A stretch of 64,000 bases of DNA from assembly GCF_003344865.1 (NCBI RefSeq), contig NZ_CP031165.1:1803910-1867909 (forward strand), given 5' to 3'. The notes beneath the pieces were generated by a model that was not told where the DNA came from, ran no database searches, and saw nothing but the letters and a program-made list of their open reading frames with translations. This document shows, one piece after another, positions 25,165 to 32,708 of this stretch (the stretch's first letter is position 1; every line of letters begins with the position of its first letter). The translations under genes were made by a program, and so were the position numbers. Origin of the DNA: Euzebya pacifica. Its GTDB lineage: Bacteria > Actinomycetota > Nitriliruptoria > Euzebyales > Euzebyaceae.

Positions 25165-26256
25165 TCAGACGGGTCGGTCGCGCTTGGGGGGCAGCTGCCG
25201 CAGCACCGACAGGGGAGTGGCGACCGTGCCGGTGCCGACCAGCCGGTCGCTGTTGTCGCGGATGCCGTCCAGCCGGTAGGACAGGACGGGTTCGGCCTTG
25301 CCCTTCAGCCTGATCGGGTCCAGCCGCTCGGTGTGGGTGAACGTCCGGACGACCGCGTAGGTCTCGGCGCTGATCGACACCGTGCCGGGGGCAGCGGAGG
25401 ACTCCAGCCGTGACGCCAGGTTGACGGTGTCCCCGATCGCGGTGAACACCCGACGGCGGGGACTGCCGATGCTGCCGACGGTCGCTGGCCCCGTGGCCAC
25501 CCCGACCCGCAGCTTCGGCATCTGCGGCTCGGCGGCGATCATCCCGTTGACGGCGTCCTGCAGGGCGATGGCCGCACGGGCTGCCAGCAGGGGGTGTTCG
25601 GGGTGGGGGATCGGCGCGCCGAACAGCGCCATGATCGCGTCCCCGATGAACGCCGACACGGCCCCGCCGTTCTCGGTGATGGCCGGCACGACCAGGGCGA
25701 AGTACCGGTTCAGCAGGTCGACCACGTCCGCCGGTGGGATCTGCTCCGACAGCGACGTGAAGCCCTGGAGGTCGGCGAACAGGACGCTGACGTCCATCGT
25801 CCGCCCACCGAGCGCCCCTCCCTCCGGATCCTCCAGCAGCTGCACGGCCACGTCGCGGCTGAGGTAGTCCGAGAACAGGTCGGTCAGCTCGTGCTCGGCC
25901 CGGCCCCGCACGCCGGCCTCGGCAGCGGCGTCGGCCATCAGCCGCAGCAGAGCTGCCTCGGCGCTGCTGAAGGCGCCGTCGTGCCGGCGGGCGACGACGA
26001 ACCCGACCGTTTCCTCGTCGGCCACGAGCGGCACCACCATCTCCGCACCCGCGCCGGTGTCCTGACGTGCGGTCGCGCCCGACCGCAACGCCGAGGACAG
26101 CAACGTCCACGTGACGTCGGTCAGCGGCACCTCGTCGGACACGAAGTGCACCACGCCGTCGATCAGCAGGGCACAGCCGACGGCGATCTCGGCCAGGGCG
26201 CCGATGGACCGCACCACGCTGGCGTCGAACGCGGCGGCCTCGGGTGAACTGGCCAC
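25165..26256 (-). CDS. class III adenylate/guanylate cyclase with GAF-like sensor
   Basis: A 363-residue cytosolic nucleotide cyclase. Residues 1-115 look like a GAF-type sensor domain; residues ~150-330 are the class III catalytic domain, with metal aspartates in LFADLQGFT (Asp162) and FIGDAIMALFG (Asp206) and the transition-state segment GDTVNLASRLE. A lone domain implies homodimers. The GTG at 26256 has GGAGGG upstream and was preferred over the long open extension. It diverges from the zinc-ribbon/FHA gene over 84 bp. Adenine versus guanine specificity cannot be settled by eye. Confidence 0.9.
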   Translation of the reverse strand: MASSPEAAAFDASVVRSIGALAEIAVGCALLIDGVVHFVSDEVPLTDVTWTLLSSALRSGATARQDTGAGAEMVVPLVADEETVGFVVARRHDGAFSSAEAALLRLMADAAAEAGVRGRAEHELTDLFSDYLSRDVAVQLLEDPEGGALGGRTMDVSVLFADLQGFTSLSEQIPPADVVDLLNRYFALVVPAITENGGAVSAFIGDAIMALFGAPIPHPEHPLLAARAAIALQDAVNGMIAAEPQMPKLRVGVATGPATVGSIGSPRRRVFTAIGDTVNLASRLESSAAPGTVSISAETYAVVRTFTHTERLDPIRLKGKAEPVLSYRLDGIRDNSDRLVGTGTVATPLSVLRQLPPKRDRPV

Positions 26257-26340
26257 TGTGCTCCCTCCGGTACCGGCCCGACCCCTCGCGTCGTAGGCTC
26301 TGCTGACGATCGTAGAGGGTTCGAGGTCGGAGGGAGCAGC

Positions 26341-27237
26341 ATGGACGGGCGCATCCTGCCCGGCCCGGGACGGGTCGTGCATCACGGCGACGTCGTCGTG
26401 GTGCTCGGAGACCGCGCCCCGACCGACCTGGTCGAGCTGCTCTTCGACGCGGCGTCCGTGGCTGACGGCGACGGGCTGCTCGATCGCCTCCGCCAGCATC
26501 CCCACGGCGACGAGCCGAGCCTGGGCGTGCTCGTCTGCCACGGTGACGGCTTCACCGTCCGCATCGGGGCCGACCTGCTGTACCGCAGCGACCACGTGGG
26601 ATATCGCAGCACCGTCTCCGGCCCCGTCGACCTTGCGACCGCCGACCCGATCAGGGTGGCCATCGGCCCTGCCGACATGCCGATCGGCCCCGCGGCGGAC
26701 CACCCCGGCCTGCGCGAGGGCGCGTGGCTCGGCACCGGTGCCTGGGTCGACACCGGCCCCACCGTCGGCGCCTCCCCGCAGCAGCTCGAGGGCGTCGTCT
26801 GCGGTACCTGCGCGGCGTTCGTCCACCCGCGGACCCTGCGATGCCGCCGCTGCGACACCGTCCTCGAACCACCCCGGCAGGCCTGGACCCAGCCGGCCGT
26901 GCCGGTGGCCAGCCTCCGGATGGACGACGGCACCCGACACGTGCTGAACGGGGACGTCGTCGTGGGCCGCAACCCCTCCGGCCACGAGCGCGTCCAGTCC
27001 GGAGCCGCTGCACCGCTCGTGGTGACCGACTCCGAACGGTCGGTGTCCCGCAGCCACGCCGAGCTGCTGGTGCAGGGATGGTCGGTGCATCTGCGCGACC
27101 TCGGCAGCCCCAACGGCACGTCGGTGCGCCTCCCCTCCTCCCCACGGCACGAGCCGGTCCCCACCGGCGAGGTCATCGCCCTCCTCCCGGGCACGGAGAT
27201 CACCATGGGCCGACGCGCGATGACGCTCCTGACCTGA
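26341..27237 (+). CDS. zinc-ribbon and FHA-domain protein
   Basis: A 298-residue protein. The N-terminal ~150 residues look like a serpin-free, PP2C-adjacent type of sensor region that I cannot name. A zinc ribbon follows, with CGTCAAFVHPRTLRCRRC (two CxxC knuckles near 155-175), then a C-terminal FHA domain (about 195-298) with GRNP, SVSRSHAEL and DLGSPNGTSVR, the phosphothreonine-binding signature. It therefore probably reads a Ser/Thr kinase signal; no kinase gene is in the window. GGAGGG precedes the ATG at 26341. Divergence from the cyclase gene suggests a shared promoter region. Confidence 0.85.
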   Translation: MDGRILPGPGRVVHHGDVVVVLGDRAPTDLVELLFDAASVADGDGLLDRLRQHPHGDEPSLGVLVCHGDGFTVRIGADLLYRSDHVGYRSTVSGPVDLATADPIRVAIGPADMPIGPAADHPGLREGAWLGTGAWVDTGPTVGASPQQLEGVVCGTCAAFVHPRTLRCRRCDTVLEPPRQAWTQPAVPVASLRMDDGTRHVLNGDVVVGRNPSGHERVQSGAAAPLVVTDSERSVSRSHAELLVQGWSVHLRDLGSPNGTSVRLPSSPRHEPVPTGEVIALLPGTEITMGRRAMTLLT

Positions 27238-27298: not shown

Positions 27299-28837
27299 TC
27301 AGCCCGGCAGCGCCGCCTCGCGGAGCGCGTCGCGGAGGATCTTGCCGGAGGCGTTGCGCGGGATCGACTCGACCACGTGCACGCGGGTCGGGACCTGCTC
27401 GGGGGTCATCGTCTCCGCAGCCCAGCCACGCACGGCGTCCTCCAGGGTCGCCGGGTCCACACCCTCGGCCGGGACCACGGAGACGTGCACCTCCTCCGGA
27501 CCGCCCTCGGGGCCGCCCTCGAACACGCCGACGTCGTTGACCTGCTCGAACGCCGCGATCCCCTGCTCGACGTGGTTGGGGTGCACCCACACGCCGTTGA
27601 CGGTGATCACGTGCGACCGGCGGCCGCTGATGAACAGGTAGCCGTCCTCGTCGATCCGGCCGATGTCGCCGAGGGTGAACTGACCGGGTTCGCGGTACGC
27701 CTCGGCCGTCTTCTCCGGCGCCTTGTGGTAGCTGAAGGTGTTGCCGTTGCGGTAGCGCAGGAAGATCTCGCCCTCCTCACCGGGGGCGACCGGCGTGTCG
27801 TCGGGCCCGATCACCGTCGCCTCGATGAACGGCAGGATCCGGCCCACGCTGCCGGGCTTGTCCAGGAAGTCCTGGCTGGAGCCCATGGCGAACATCCCGC
27901 CCTCGCTGGCGCCGTAGATCTCCACGACCTTCGGGCCGAGCCAGTCGATCATGCCCTGCTTGACGTGCGGCGGGCACGGGGCCCCGGTGTGCATCAGCAG
28001 CTGCAGCGTCGTGCCCTTGAAGCGGTCGCGGACGTCCTCGGGCAGGCGCAGCATCTCCCCGAGGACCGACGGCAGCAGCAGCGTGTTGCCCACGTGGTAG
28101 CGGTCGATCGCCTCGAGGACGCCCGCCGGATCGGTGGTCCGGCGGATCACGATCCGTTGCCCGGCCAGCATCGGGAAGGTCGACAGGACGAACTGGCCGG
28201 AGTGGTACAGCGGTCCGGCGATCAACGCAACGCCCTTGGTGTCGATGCCCAGCCCCTGCGCCACCCCGGCCGCGGTGTCCAGCACGTCGCTGATCGGGCC
28301 GCCGGCCGCGTTGATGCCTGCCCCGATGACGCCCTTGGGCGCCCCCGTCGTGCCCGAGGTGTAGAACATCGGGCCGCCGGCCATCTGCCCGTCGGGTTCG
28401 ATGGGCGGGGAGTGGTACAGCAGGTCGGCGGCCGCGTGCACGCCGTCACCGGTGGCCCCGTCGAGGGTCAGGCGGGCGACGAGCGGCAGGTCCGCGGTGG
28501 CCTCGACGGCCACAGGCCGGCAGGCATCCTCCATGATCAGCAGCCGCGCATCGGAGTGCTCCATGATGTAGCGGGTCCGCTCGACGTCGGCGTCCCACGG
28601 CACGATCACGAGGACGAACCCGGCGTGCAGGGCTGCCACGAAGACCTCCCAGGCCTCGCGCCGGTTGCCGGTCATCACCGCGATGCGGTCACCGGGCTGG
28701 ATCCCGAGGCCACGAAGCCCGAGGATCCACCGGTTGGCCTGGTCGTTGAGGTGCACCCACGTCGTGGTGCCGGTCTCGTCGGTCAGCGCGACCTCGTTGG
28801 GCCGCTCGGCAACCTGGGACTTCAGTCCGATGACCAT
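27299..28837 (-). CDS. AMP-forming acyl-CoA synthetase/ligase
   Basis: A 512-residue ANL-superfamily enzyme that activates a carboxylic acid to the acyl-adenylate and then usually the CoA thioester. Motifs: the phosphate loop TSGTTGAPKG (about residues 160-169), the hinge region YLFISGRRSHVITVNGVWVH, and the C-terminal lysine in NASGKILRDAL. It starts 3 nt after the stop of the IDO-reductase-b5 fusion gene, so the two are one transcript. That suggests the fusion enzyme makes, or acts on, a carboxylic acid handled as a CoA ester. Specificity cannot be read from sequence. Confidence 0.92.
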   Translation of the reverse strand: MVIGLKSQVAERPNEVALTDETGTTTWVHLNDQANRWILGLRGLGIQPGDRIAVMTGNRREAWEVFVAALHAGFVLVIVPWDADVERTRYIMEHSDARLLIMEDACRPVAVEATADLPLVARLTLDGATGDGVHAAADLLYHSPPIEPDGQMAGGPMFYTSGTTGAPKGVIGAGINAAGGPISDVLDTAAGVAQGLGIDTKGVALIAGPLYHSGQFVLSTFPMLAGQRIVIRRTTDPAGVLEAIDRYHVGNTLLLPSVLGEMLRLPEDVRDRFKGTTLQLLMHTGAPCPPHVKQGMIDWLGPKVVEIYGASEGGMFAMGSSQDFLDKPGSVGRILPFIEATVIGPDDTPVAPGEEGEIFLRYRNGNTFSYHKAPEKTAEAYREPGQFTLGDIGRIDEDGYLFISGRRSHVITVNGVWVHPNHVEQGIAAFEQVNDVGVFEGGPEGGPEEVHVSVVPAEGVDPATLEDAVRGWAAETMTPEQVPTRVHVVESIPRNASGKILRDALREAALPG

Positions 28838-28840
28838 CCC

Positions 28841-31800
28841 TCACCCCTCCAGGGCAGTGGCGAGCGCCCGGGCTGCCGTGGCCAGCTCGGCGCGACGTGC
28901 GCGGAGGCGGTCGGGCAGCACGGCCAGGGCACCGAGCAGGTCGGGACCCGCGACCACGGCGACGGCGGCCTCGTGTCGCTCGAAGGCCTGCAGCCCGACA
29001 CCGAGGGCATCCACGATGTCGGTCAGCGTCCCCTCGATGGTGGCTGCGGCATCGGCGATGGCCGCGTGCGCGGCGGGTCCGGCGTCGGCTGCCCGGTCGC
29101 GGGCGTCGTGGGCGGCCGCGAGGGCGTCGGCCACGTCGGGCCACAGGCCGCCGTCCTCACCGAGCGTCCCGCTGCCGGCGGTGTGGCCGAGCCCCTGCTG
29201 CAGCCGGCGGCCCAGCTCCTGGGCGTCGGCGGCCGGTGCGGCCAGTCCACACGTCATCGCCCACAGGTCGGCGATCTCGGTCCCGAGCGCGATGGCCAGC
29301 AGCTGGACGCAGAACCGTTGCATCGTGTCGACCACGATGCCCACCTTCAGGGGCGTCAGGTCACCGACGGCCTCCCGGTCGGTCAGGGGCAGGGCGATCA
29401 CGCTCAGCTCGTTGCGCAGGGAGTTGCGCAGCTCCACCACGGTGTAGGCCTCGGCGACCCACGCGGCGTACAGCTGCTGCAGGGTGATCGCGTCCACCCG
29501 ACCGTCACGGATCGCGATGCCCCATGGGCCCTCGAGCGACAGCTGCCGGACAACACCGATGCGGTACATCTCCAGCATCGCCACGATCTCGGGATCCAGG
29601 TGGTGTCGGACCTCGTCGAACTCCGTGGTGCAGTCCACCCCACAGTTGTCGTCGACGATGTGGCGACCGCCGGGGTGCAGGTGGCGGAACTCCGTCATGT
29701 CGTGCACGACGCCGTTGATGGCCATCCAGTACCCGTTGTCGGGGCCGGTGTGGGCGATCAGCTCCGACACCTCGAGGGGCCGCTCGCCCGGGCGGAGGTC
29801 GGCGGCCGGCGTGAACGTGGTGAACACGTCGAACATGACCTGGCGGTCCGCGACCAGCTGGCGCATCGCCACGTCGGGGTCCAGGCCCTCCGGGCCGTGG
29901 GCAGCCAGCGCCTCGCGGACTGCCGTCATGACCGTGGACGCGAACCCGCCCTGCCCGCACACGTACAGGTTGGCGTCGGTCTCCAGCAGCCAGCGCACGA
30001 GCTCCGGGCCGACCTCCGGTGAGGTGATGAGCCGGTCGATCCGTCCCGGCGGGCCGCCCTCCGGGGCCTCACGGGAGTAGGCGATGTCCAGCCGAACGTG
30101 GTCGGTGTCGCGCCAGCGGTACAGCCGCTCCTGATCGGGGACCTGCTCGGGAGTGCGCACCGCCAGCATCAGCCAGTTGTCGCCGTCCCCGGCCTCGCGG
30201 TGCTCGAGGAACCCCATGAACGGGGCGACCCCGGTCCCGGCAGCGCACATGATCACGCCGCGGTCGTCGGTGGGCAGGGTGAACCGCTGCGGACGGACGA
30301 CGGTCAGGTCGACCTCGCCGCCGATGTCCAGCCGCTCGGTCATCATCGTCGATGCGGTCCCGCGCTGGCGGCGGACCTCGCCGTCGGCGCCCTCCGCCTC
30401 GAACGACAGGTGCCCGATGACCAGGCTTGCCGTCGTCGGCAGGCCGTCGTCGTCGACCTCGGTGCCCGCCACGGAGTACAGGCGGGCGGGCAGCGGCGGG
30501 AGGATGCGGCTGATGGCCTCGCGGTCCATCAGCTCGGCCTTCCACATGCGGGAGGGGTTGAAGCCGGTGCGACGCAGCTCGTGGAGCGCGTCGGGCACCT
30601 CCCACCCCTCCTCCCGGCGTTCGCGCAGCAACGCGAGCAGGCTCGGGGCCGGCGCCAGCGCCACCAGCTGCTCGGCCACCTCCGGGGTCAGGGGACGCAG
30701 CCACGCATGGGTCAGGAAGTCGCGCAGGTTGGCGTCCCCACGGTTGAGCTGGTCGTGGCGGGCTGCCAGCGATGCCTGCCACGACGTCGTCAGGGGGACC
30801 CGCTCCTCACCCGTGGCGCCGAGGGCCTGCAGCGTCCACTCCACGAGCTCGGGGTCGTTCTTGGGGTGCACCGCCAGACGGTCCCCGGGACGCACGATCA
30901 GGCCGGTCCCGCGCAGGTCCAGGCGGATGTCGTTGATCGGTCCGGTCGAGCCCTGGGCAACCACCGTGCGGCCGGCCAGACGCGCGGGGACCGGCTGCAT
31001 CGACATGTCCAGCACCCGCTCGACGCGGGCCGCCTCCAGCGCGTGGTGGGCGTGCCGCCACGCCCGTGCCCGGTACTGCCCGGAGATGCCGCTGGCGGTG
31101 GAGGGCCGGCCGACCTTGAACGCGGTCTGGATGAATCCGTAGACCTTGCGGCGATGCACGCCCAGGTAGCCACGGTCACCGGTGTAGGCGTCGACGACGT
31201 TCTGGAACAGTCCACGCAGGCCGATGTCGCCGGACTCCAGCACGAAGTCGCGGACCGGCGCCTGGCCCATGGCGGCGACGAACCGGCGGACGTTCGGGGC
31301 GTAGTTGTCGGCGACGTGCAGGGCCTCCTGGCCCAGGGGGCTGGCGTGGGTGACCCGACCGAGGAAGTTGTCGAGGGCCTGGATACCGGCCGCGGCCGCA
31401 CCGGAGACACCCGGCACGTTGCTCACGACCGGGATGCCCGTGGGGGCGACCAGCTTGGCCCAGATGACGGGGTCGGCGTGCGGGGAGGCCAGCGGGACCG
31501 GGTCGATCTTCATCAACGCGGTCTCGGTCAGGTGGTGCACGGCGTCCAGCACGTCCAGCAGCGACTGCACCACGGCGTCGACGTCCTTGGCCGCCGCGGC
31601 GTCCTGCCCGCGGACCATGGCCTGCACCAGCGGCGTGCAGGCCGCGCTGACCTCGTTGAACCCCAGGCAGAAGGCAGCTTCGGTGGAGGAGCCGGTCTGG
31701 GGGACCAACAGCCTGGTGTTCTCCACGGTGATCGGGCCGGTGGGGTCGATGCGTGCCCAGTTGTGCAGCATCAGGTCGTCGAGGGAGAAGTGGGCACGGT

Positions 31801-32224
31801 GGCGGCCCATCCGGCGGGCGACCTCCTCCCACGGCAGCCGCAGGACGCTGGGCACCGCGACCGGGGCCGGCAGGTGCAGGTCGTGCATGTCGCACCGCAC
31901 GTAGGCGTACACCAGCGCACCGAGCACCACCGAGGCACGCCACAGGTGCTCGTCGGCAAGGTCCTCGGGGGCAGCGGACAGCAGCGGCAGCTCGGGCAGC
32001 TCCCGTCGGGCCGACAGGTCGCGCCACATCCGGGGCAGCTCCGCCGCCGCTTGGTCCCAGGCCTCGTGGCTGGGCGGAAGCGCCGTCGGGGGGTCGCCGA
32101 CCGGCATGAGCCCGTCGTCGTAGGACAACGAGCCGAGGTGGGGCGATGCCTCCTCGGCGAGGGCCTCCAGCAGCCGTCGGCTGGGCCCGGGGGTGGTCGA
32201 GGGCGGCAGGGTCGTCGCGGTCAT
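28841..32224 (-). CDS. four-part fusion: IDO/PrnB-like haem domain, FAD/NADPH reductase, cytochrome b5, helical tail
   Basis: An 1127-residue protein. Residues 1-400 resemble the indoleamine-dioxygenase/PrnB superfamily: HFSLDDLMLHNWARIDPTGP, SGAAAAGIQALDNFLGR, and APVRDFVLESGDIGLRGLF followed by RGYLGVHRRKVYGF, whose His357 may be the haem ligand. Residues 410-800 are a CPR/sulfite-reductase-type FAD/NADPH module without an FMN domain: RLYS (581-584), GTAS (622-625), AAGTGVAPF (661-669), YSRE (716-719), YVCG (754-757). Residues 815-895 are a cytochrome b5 domain with HPGG (His850) and His874 at the right 24-residue spacing. Residues 900-1127 are helical and unrecognised. It probably carries electrons NADPH-FAD-b5-haem; the substrate is unknown. 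It is the second gene of a CBS/fusion/ligase operon. Confidence 0.78.
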   Translation of the reverse strand: MTATTLPPSTTPGPSRRLLEALAEEASPHLGSLSYDDGLMPVGDPPTALPPSHEAWDQAAAELPRMWRDLSARRELPELPLLSAAPEDLADEHLWRASVVLGALVYAYVRCDMHDLHLPAPVAVPSVLRLPWEEVARRMGRHRAHFSLDDLMLHNWARIDPTGPITVENTRLLVPQTGSSTEAAFCLGFNEVSAACTPLVQAMVRGQDAAAAKDVDAVVQSLLDVLDAVHHLTETALMKIDPVPLASPHADPVIWAKLVAPTGIPVVSNVPGVSGAAAAGIQALDNFLGRVTHASPLGQEALHVADNYAPNVRRFVAAMGQAPVRDFVLESGDIGLRGLFQNVVDAYTGDRGYLGVHRRKVYGFIQTAFKVGRPSTASGISGQYRARAWRHAHHALEAARVERVLDMSMQPVPARLAGRTVVAQGSTGPINDIRLDLRGTGLIVRPGDRLAVHPKNDPELVEWTLQALGATGEERVPLTTSWQASLAARHDQLNRGDANLRDFLTHAWLRPLTPEVAEQLVALAPAPSLLALLRERREEGWEVPDALHELRRTGFNPSRMWKAELMDREAISRILPPLPARLYSVAGTEVDDDGLPTTASLVIGHLSFEAEGADGEVRRQRGTASTMMTERLDIGGEVDLTVVRPQRFTLPTDDRGVIMCAAGTGVAPFMGFLEHREAGDGDNWLMLAVRTPEQVPDQERLYRWRDTDHVRLDIAYSREAPEGGPPGRIDRLITSPEVGPELVRWLLETDANLYVCGQGGFASTVMTAVREALAAHGPEGLDPDVAMRQLVADRQVMFDVFTTFTPAADLRPGERPLEVSELIAHTGPDNGYWMAINGVVHDMTEFRHLHPGGRHIVDDNCGVDCTTEFDEVRHHLDPEIVAMLEMYRIGVVRQLSLEGPWGIAIRDGRVDAITLQQLYAAWVAEAYTVVELRNSLRNELSVIALPLTDREAVGDLTPLKVGIVVDTMQRFCVQLLAIALGTEIADLWAMTCGLAAPAADAQELGRRLQQGLGHTAGSGTLGEDGGLWPDVADALAAAHDARDRAADAGPAAHAAIADAAATIEGTLTDIVDALGVGLQAFERHEAAVAVVAGPDLLGALAVLPDRLRARRAELATAARALATALEG

Positions 32225-32231
32225 CGTGGGG

Positions 32232-32708
32232 TCACGCAGCCGGAGCCGGCGCCCCGGCGTCGTCGGCGACGTCGCACAGCAGCGCCCAGCAGATGTCGGC
32301 CCGCGACACCGTGCCGAGGAACCGGCCGTCGGCGACGACCGGCAGCCGCCGGATCTGCTTGGACACCATCAGGGCCGCGGGTTGCAGCAGCTGGTCGTCG
32401 GGCCCGACCGTGAACGGGTTGTGGATGACGTGGTTGATCACCGGGTCGTCCACCCGGCTCTCGCCGGCGTTGACGAAGAACGCGTAGGCCTTCTCCAGCG
32501 TGGCCTGCCCCGGGTCGATGTCGTCGAAGTCGGGCATCAGCGCGCGCAGGAGGTCACCCTCCGACAGCACCCCCATGAACGCCCCGCTGTCGGCGACGAC
32601 CGCAAGGTCGCTTGCCCCGGTCAACGCCAGCAGCTCTGCGGCGACCCGCAACGGATCGTCGGGGGACACCCGAGCTGCCTTGCGGTCCATAACGTCTCTG
32701 ACCCTCAT
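32232..32708 (-). CDS. tandem CBS-domain protein
   Basis: A 158-residue protein made only of two CBS domains (about residues 1-60 and 85-150; VRDVMDRKAARVSPDDPL, FMGVLSEGDLLRAL, IRRLPVVADGRFLGTVSRAD). Stand-alone pairs bind adenine nucleotides or other small ligands and act as sensors. GGAGGG lies upstream of the ATG. It ends 7 nt before the fusion gene and is the first gene of the three-gene operon, so it may sense energy or redox state for the enzyme behind it. No enzyme domain is present. Confidence 0.9.
   Translation of the reverse strand: MRVRDVMDRKAARVSPDDPLRVAAELLALTGASDLAVVADSGAFMGVLSEGDLLRALMPDFDDIDPGQATLEKAYAFFVNAGESRVDDPVINHVIHNPFTVGPDDQLLQPAALMVSKQIRRLPVVADGRFLGTVSRADICWALLCDVADDAGAPAPAA

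Follow-up and report, generated by a model that had tools for sequence, protein, structure and literature searches.

A predicted self-sufficient haem oxygenase of the IDO branch with a built-in FAD/NADPH reductase and cytochrome b5, encoded beside a CBS-pair protein in Euzebya pacifica

Within a 64,000-nucleotide stretch of the Euzebya pacifica genome (contig NZ_CP031165.1, positions 1,803,910 to 1,867,909 of the forward strand; hereafter the window), we analyzed a gene whose product joins an IDO-family haem domain to an FAD/NADPH reductase, a cytochrome b5 and an orphan helical tail (the fusion; Table 1). At the sequence level, an oxygenase-type domain and a complete NAD(P)H redox chain are contained in one polypeptide. 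Judging from these features, the fusion is rather probably a self-sufficient haem oxygenase that belongs to the IDO branch, has a histidine-ligated haem and is subject to regulation; its substrate would be something other than plain L-tryptophan.

The fusion gene is real, given that a second genome of the same genus encodes a full-length copy with 93% identity, and that full-length orthologues from outside the genus, at approximately 34% identity, were found with no internal stops. Pfam placed IDO at residues 34-235 of the fusion (PF01231, E=7.5e-23), NAD_binding_1 at residues 659-765 and Cyt-b5 at residues 820-892 (PF00173, 2.8e-15), together with a weak FAD_binding_1 match, under its cut-off, at residues 432-482. 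Together with NCBIfam and PDB comparisons and with the reading of the open reading frame, a single uninterrupted one of 1127 codons, these matches confirmed the domain composition that a preliminary description of the window had assigned to one 1127-residue frame. The predicted model of the full-length fusion (protein chain alone) had a pTM of 0.86; reductase matches took up the Foldseek list for this model, which therefore speaks neither for nor against the IDO fold.

The haem domain scored 81.4 bits against PF01231, for which the curated cut-off is 26, and matched human IDO2 and IDO1 among PDB sequences over residues ~41-356 (8.8e-16 and 1.5e-11, respectively). Alignment with hhalign to a canonical bacterial IDO profile gave a probability of 99.8 (E 7e-30) over residues 32-346. 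The IDO-type N-terminus of the preliminary description was borne out by these results. Its “PrnB-like” label was given up, and with it membership of PrnB, since the PF08933 (DUF1864) profile had no match to the fusion even at E<=1; the haem domain belongs to the IDO family.

Conservation of individual residues was counted over 53 full-length fusion sequences, and active-site positions are given in the numbering of human IDO1 (hIDO1; F163, F226, R231, H346). The equivalent of the proximal haem-ligand histidine, H357, sits in helix 353-370 of the predicted model. Alignment with canonical IDOs showed that the NW motif is also retained, as is the equivalent of F163, F185, in 50 of the 53 sequences; D150, W255 and K257 are invariant. 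At the position of F226 the fusions carry the invariant W255, and at that of R231, the arginine that binds the tryptophan carboxylate, all 53 have Ala or Gly (residue 260, ungapped alignment). Furthermore, the GTGG loop of IDO is replaced by one of the type T-x-x-(G/A)-x-x-G, and K257 is an added lysine relative to canonical IDO. The changes at R231, F226 and GTGG, combined with the invariance of W255 and K257, argue for a substrate or binding mode different from that of canonical IDO. Mean identity was 51% among the fusions and 23% between the fusions and canonical IDO.

By NCBIfam and PDB comparison, residues 398-800 correspond to the FAD/NADPH half of CysJ, the sulfite reductase flavoprotein, and Foldseek agreed (SiR-FP60, 1ddg, TMt 0.77). 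The FAD motif R581-x-Y583-S584 is conserved among relatives, and the motif for the 2'-phosphate of NADPH retains S717 in 52 and R718 in 45 of the 53 sequences. The reductase terminates in DVF (residues 799-801), with an aromatic residue at the F801 position in 52/53, which matches the FAD-covering aromatic residue at the C-terminus of CysJ and cytochrome P450 reductase (CPR). These findings bore out the earlier proposal of an FAD/NADPH reductase in the same chain. No match to a flavodoxin/FMN domain was detected in the fusion with Pfam or NCBIfam, and the spacing between the IDO and FAD regions is only ~8 residues. The cytochrome b5 directly follows the reductase and therefore stands at the place of the FMN domain. 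As described previously, it has an HPGG motif with a second histidine 24 residues further on; these axial ligands, H850 and H874, bring the haem-ligand histidines of the fusion to three.

The C-terminal 234 residues were found in all of the full-length relatives aligned. Their description as a helical tail of unknown kind held up: the model predicts a helical bundle, for which we obtained no Pfam family with consistent support, no significant PDB sequence match and no Foldseek match at E<=0.001. Among 296 genomes of the phylum, this domain occurs only within the fusion.

Each of the 52 loci for which upstream sequence was available has a gene for a homologue of the CBS-pair protein just upstream of the fusion and in the same orientation; the gap mostly ranges from a short overlap to 49 nt, with a few loci of up to ~310 nt. 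The spacings in the window, 7 nt to the CBS gene and 3 nt to the AMP-forming ligase gene, agree with those given in the preliminary description. The ligase adjoins the fusion only in the window and in a congener (L002), where the ligase is 95% identical; elsewhere, ligase matches were found at just two loci, 1-2.5 kb off and 26-27% identical. Since its adjacency is confined to the genus and the CBS protein is present in 52/52 loci, the stable partnership is that of the fusion with the CBS protein. The ligase was accordingly dropped as a functional partner, and the earlier suggestion that a product or substrate is activated with CoA was not supported.

Table 1. Position of the fusion gene, its domains and haem ligands, and the adjoining genes in the window.
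Feature	Residues	Coordinates	Strand	Basis or remarks
Fusion gene	1-1127	28841..32224	-	ATG start, 1127 aa; IDO-like haem domain, FAD/NADPH reductase, cytochrome b5, orphan helical tail
IDO-family haem domain	1-402	31019..32224	-	PF01231; PDB IDO2/IDO1; hhalign to canonical bacterial IDO
Equivalent of IDO proximal haem-ligand His (hIDO1 H346)	H357	31154..31156	-	Kept in 53/53; MAFFT alignment with canonical IDO His
CysJ/CPR-type FAD-NADPH reductase with connecting domain, without FMN domain	411-801	29822..30994	-	NCBIfam, PDB, Foldseek
Cytochrome b5 domain	815-893	29546..29782	-	PF00173, 2.8e-15
b5 axial haem ligand (HPGG, residues 850-853)	H850	29675..29677	-	53/53
b5 axial haem ligand	H874	29603..29605	-	53/53
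Orphan helical-bundle domain	894-1127	28844..29545	-	Predicted model, pLDDT 91
CBS-pair protein		32232..32708	-	7 nt upstream of fusion; PF00571, 4e-21
AMP-forming acyl-CoA ligase		27299..28837	-	3 nt downstream of fusion; PF00501, 1e-54

Scanning one genome per species with an alignment query yielded 56 loci, a single-protein query having given none; two short peptides formed the basis of the scan, so that this number is a minimum. Long full or near-full matches accounted for 54 of the loci, and the other two (L061, L062) were weak and partial. The search for the same architecture elsewhere, as proposed in the preliminary description, recovered more than 50 relatives in five phyla, i.e., Actinomycetota (including Herbidospora, Microtetraspora, Dactylosporangium, Catellatospora and Pseudonocardia), Chloroflexota, Armatimonadota, Myxococcota and Pseudomonadota. 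The fusion is rare in its own class (4/66 genomes), and IDO-family proteins were found in 4/296 genomes of the phylum; the 14 control genomes had none. A plasmid origin of the full fusion was dropped, as no plasmid record had a single region covering 80% of it.

Many of the relatives carry further modules. In 33 loci, such as that of Streptosporangium subroseum (L038), the fusion itself has an added FHA domain at its N-terminus; one fusion of 1461 aa ends in two cNMP-binding domains (L027, 1761-6146), and another of 1572 aa continues, with no intervening stop, into a saccharopine-dehydrogenase-like domain (L033, 1330-6048). In some lineages the CBS partner has a receiver-like N-terminal region, for which Response_reg matched below its cut-off in L003 (0.0037) and did not match in L006 (Pfam). 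The preliminary description had been silent on the FHA, cNMP-binding and receiver-like modules, on the presence of the tail in all relatives and on the occurrence of the fusion in more than one phylum.

Upstream of the CBS gene, a RidA/L-PSP gene (PF01042) was identified by Pfam at L016 and L018, and RidA-homologous frames occupy the same place at six more loci (L012, L013, L015, L019, L045, L057); this neighbour fits, and gives a hint of, an imine or enamine by-product. Four loci (L008, L009, L010, L037) have in common a nearby or downstream cluster that encodes a 1015-1018 aa protein with PIG-L, NPCBM and cNMP-binding domains, a second PIG-L protein, a glycosyltransferase and a 390-410 aa protein without a Pfam match. 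An FHA-domain protein with a zinc-ribbon-like motif adjoins the operon in the window (26341-27237, +). At three loci, a class III adenylate/guanylate cyclase gene is located no more than a few kb from the fusion: in the window (25165-27150, -), in one Armatimonadota locus (L007, 10360-10938) and in one Myxococcota locus (L054, 11651-12142), which possibly reflects a link to cyclic nucleotides, or chance. A reading as a defence system was dropped, as PADLOC had no match for the fusion, the CBS protein or the ligase.

From this arrangement, we infer the following route. NADPH would reduce the FAD of a CysJ/CPR-type module that has presumably lost its FMN domain, and the FAD would pass electrons one at a time to the cytochrome b5 of the same chain as a substitute for that domain. 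The b5 would in turn reduce the IDO-fold haem held by H357, which could therefore bind O2 and oxygenate a small substrate, probably aromatic or amino-containing rather than plain L-tryptophan. The CBS-pair partner may gate the enzyme according to the adenine-nucleotide level, with an FHA, cNMP-binding or receiver-like module perhaps giving extra control in many lineages. Electrons from NADPH might serve only to prime the ferrous state or be used stoichiometrically on every turnover. Both are possible, since human IDO1 can be supported in vitro by NADPH-CPR, whether or not b5 is added, although the in vivo donor is still unclear (PMC13142367), since PrnB supplied with similar redox donors gave no product (PMC11791213), and since monooxygenation as well as dioxygenation is known in the heme-dependent aromatic oxygenase superfamily, even for IDO (PMC11904535, PMC12921851). 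More tentatively, and at somewhat less than an even chance, the fusion may be a true NADPH-consuming monooxygenase, in which b5 delivers electrons to a His-ligated IDO-fold haem on every turnover and activity is switched by adenine nucleotides through the obligate CBS partner and by phospho-signalling through FHA; if so, it would join the P450 fusions as another type of self-sufficient haem monooxygenase. Several observations weigh against a self-sufficient oxygenase of the IDO branch, namely the failure of PrnB with such donors, the Ala or Gly at the R231 position of all 53 sequences, on account of which catalysis may differ from that of IDO, and the FHA, CBS and cNMP signalling modules, which are compatible with a sensor too.

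Such a sensor, or a detoxifying protein, could be a functional counterpart of flavohaemoglobin that makes use of the IDO fold, in which NADPH recycles ferric haem during the handling of NO or O2. The fusion shares the cofactor logic of flavohaemoglobin (haem, FAD and NAD(P)H), its FHA, CBS and cNMP domains and the receiver-like N-terminus of its partner would suit signalling, and O2 carriage on the same fold has a precedent in the IDO-like myoglobins of molluscs, as cited in PMC1821046. We nevertheless regard this as unlikely, since the strong conservation of F185, W255, K257 and the Gly-rich loop suggests a bound substrate, and no NO or respiration genes were seen among the neighbours scanned. 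Another reading would be a canonical L-tryptophan 2,3-dioxygenase that feeds the kynurenine pathway and whose reductase and b5 do no more than hold the haem ferrous. IDO membership by profile, the reduction of IDO1 by b5/CPR in vitro (PMC13142367) and the presence, in 14 of the 27 genomes with the fusion that were checked, of a kynureninase that passes the curated cut-off are consistent with this role, which nonetheless seems quite improbable to us. Not only are R231 and GTGG replaced in the fusion, but the window genome already encodes a canonical stand-alone IDO of 382 aa with FYHRLR and GTGG (L004, G000:C1:471932-473020); the only other genome among the 27 to have one alongside the fusion is a Chloroflexota metagenome-assembled genome. 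Kynurenine genes were absent from the fusion neighbourhoods scanned, and 13 of the 27 genomes, including that of the isolate Pseudonocardia oroxyli, had no above-cut-off kynureninase, although the metagenome-assembled genomes among them are incomplete. With kynureninase in just 14/27 genomes, the genomic link is weak, and a kynurenine role in general was therefore not supported. Finally, the IDO-like domain might be a structural or sensory relic, in a protein whose NADPH-b5 reductase and tail reduce an external acceptor. Reductase-b5 pairs serve as general electron donors, and the domain has diverged to 23% identity with canonical IDO; the invariance of its proximal histidine and of several pocket residues across several phyla, however, makes this very improbable.

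The self-sufficient oxygenase that we favour matters because the way in which IDO-type enzymes become reduced in cells is still regarded as unclear (PMC13142367) and PrnB failed with supplied donors (PMC11791213). As a natural IDO-family protein with a built-in donor chain, the fusion comes with an unambiguous set of physiological partners, i.e., NADPH, FAD and b5, and lends itself to purification and assay as a single unit, which makes the question of electron supply to IDO directly testable. The heme-dependent aromatic oxygenase superfamily gains from it a further architecture, together with an orphan domain and a regulatory partner that is conserved, and it might serve as a one-component, NADPH-driven biocatalyst. 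In agreement with the preliminary description, which knew of no described example, no account of this architecture was found in the open-access literature, subscription papers being outside the search; domain databases probably list it without comment. What is new here is apparently the arrangement, the accessory domain and the conserved partner, the parts themselves being known.

Compared with known systems, the fusion shares with IDO (PF01231; human IDO1 and IDO2, bacterial IDO) a profile, an alignable fold region, the proximal histidine, the NW motif and the F163 equivalent F185, but is only ~23% identical, is changed at the F226, R231 and GTGG positions, and adds the reductase, b5, tail and CBS partner. 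With PrnB and MarE, of the heme-dependent aromatic oxygenase superfamily, it has a His-ligated haem in common; it has no PF08933 match, unlike PrnB, and the papers examined on the two describe no fused redox partner. CysJ and CPR have the same FAD, connecting and NADPH domains, RxYS and SR motifs and aromatic FAD-shielding end, whereas the fusion lacks their FMN/flavodoxin domain and continues with cytochrome b5. Haem or b5 and FAD/NAD(P)H modules are also chained in one protein in flavohaemoglobin, Ncb5or and eukaryotic nitrate reductase, from which the fusion differs in catalytic domain, reductase type and order. Like P450-BM3 (CYP102A1), it joins a haem oxygenase, here a predicted one, to a CPR-type reductase in one chain; however, it has a His-ligated IDO fold in place of a Cys-ligated P450 and a b5 in place of the FMN domain, and it adds an orphan tail and, putatively, control through CBS and FHA.

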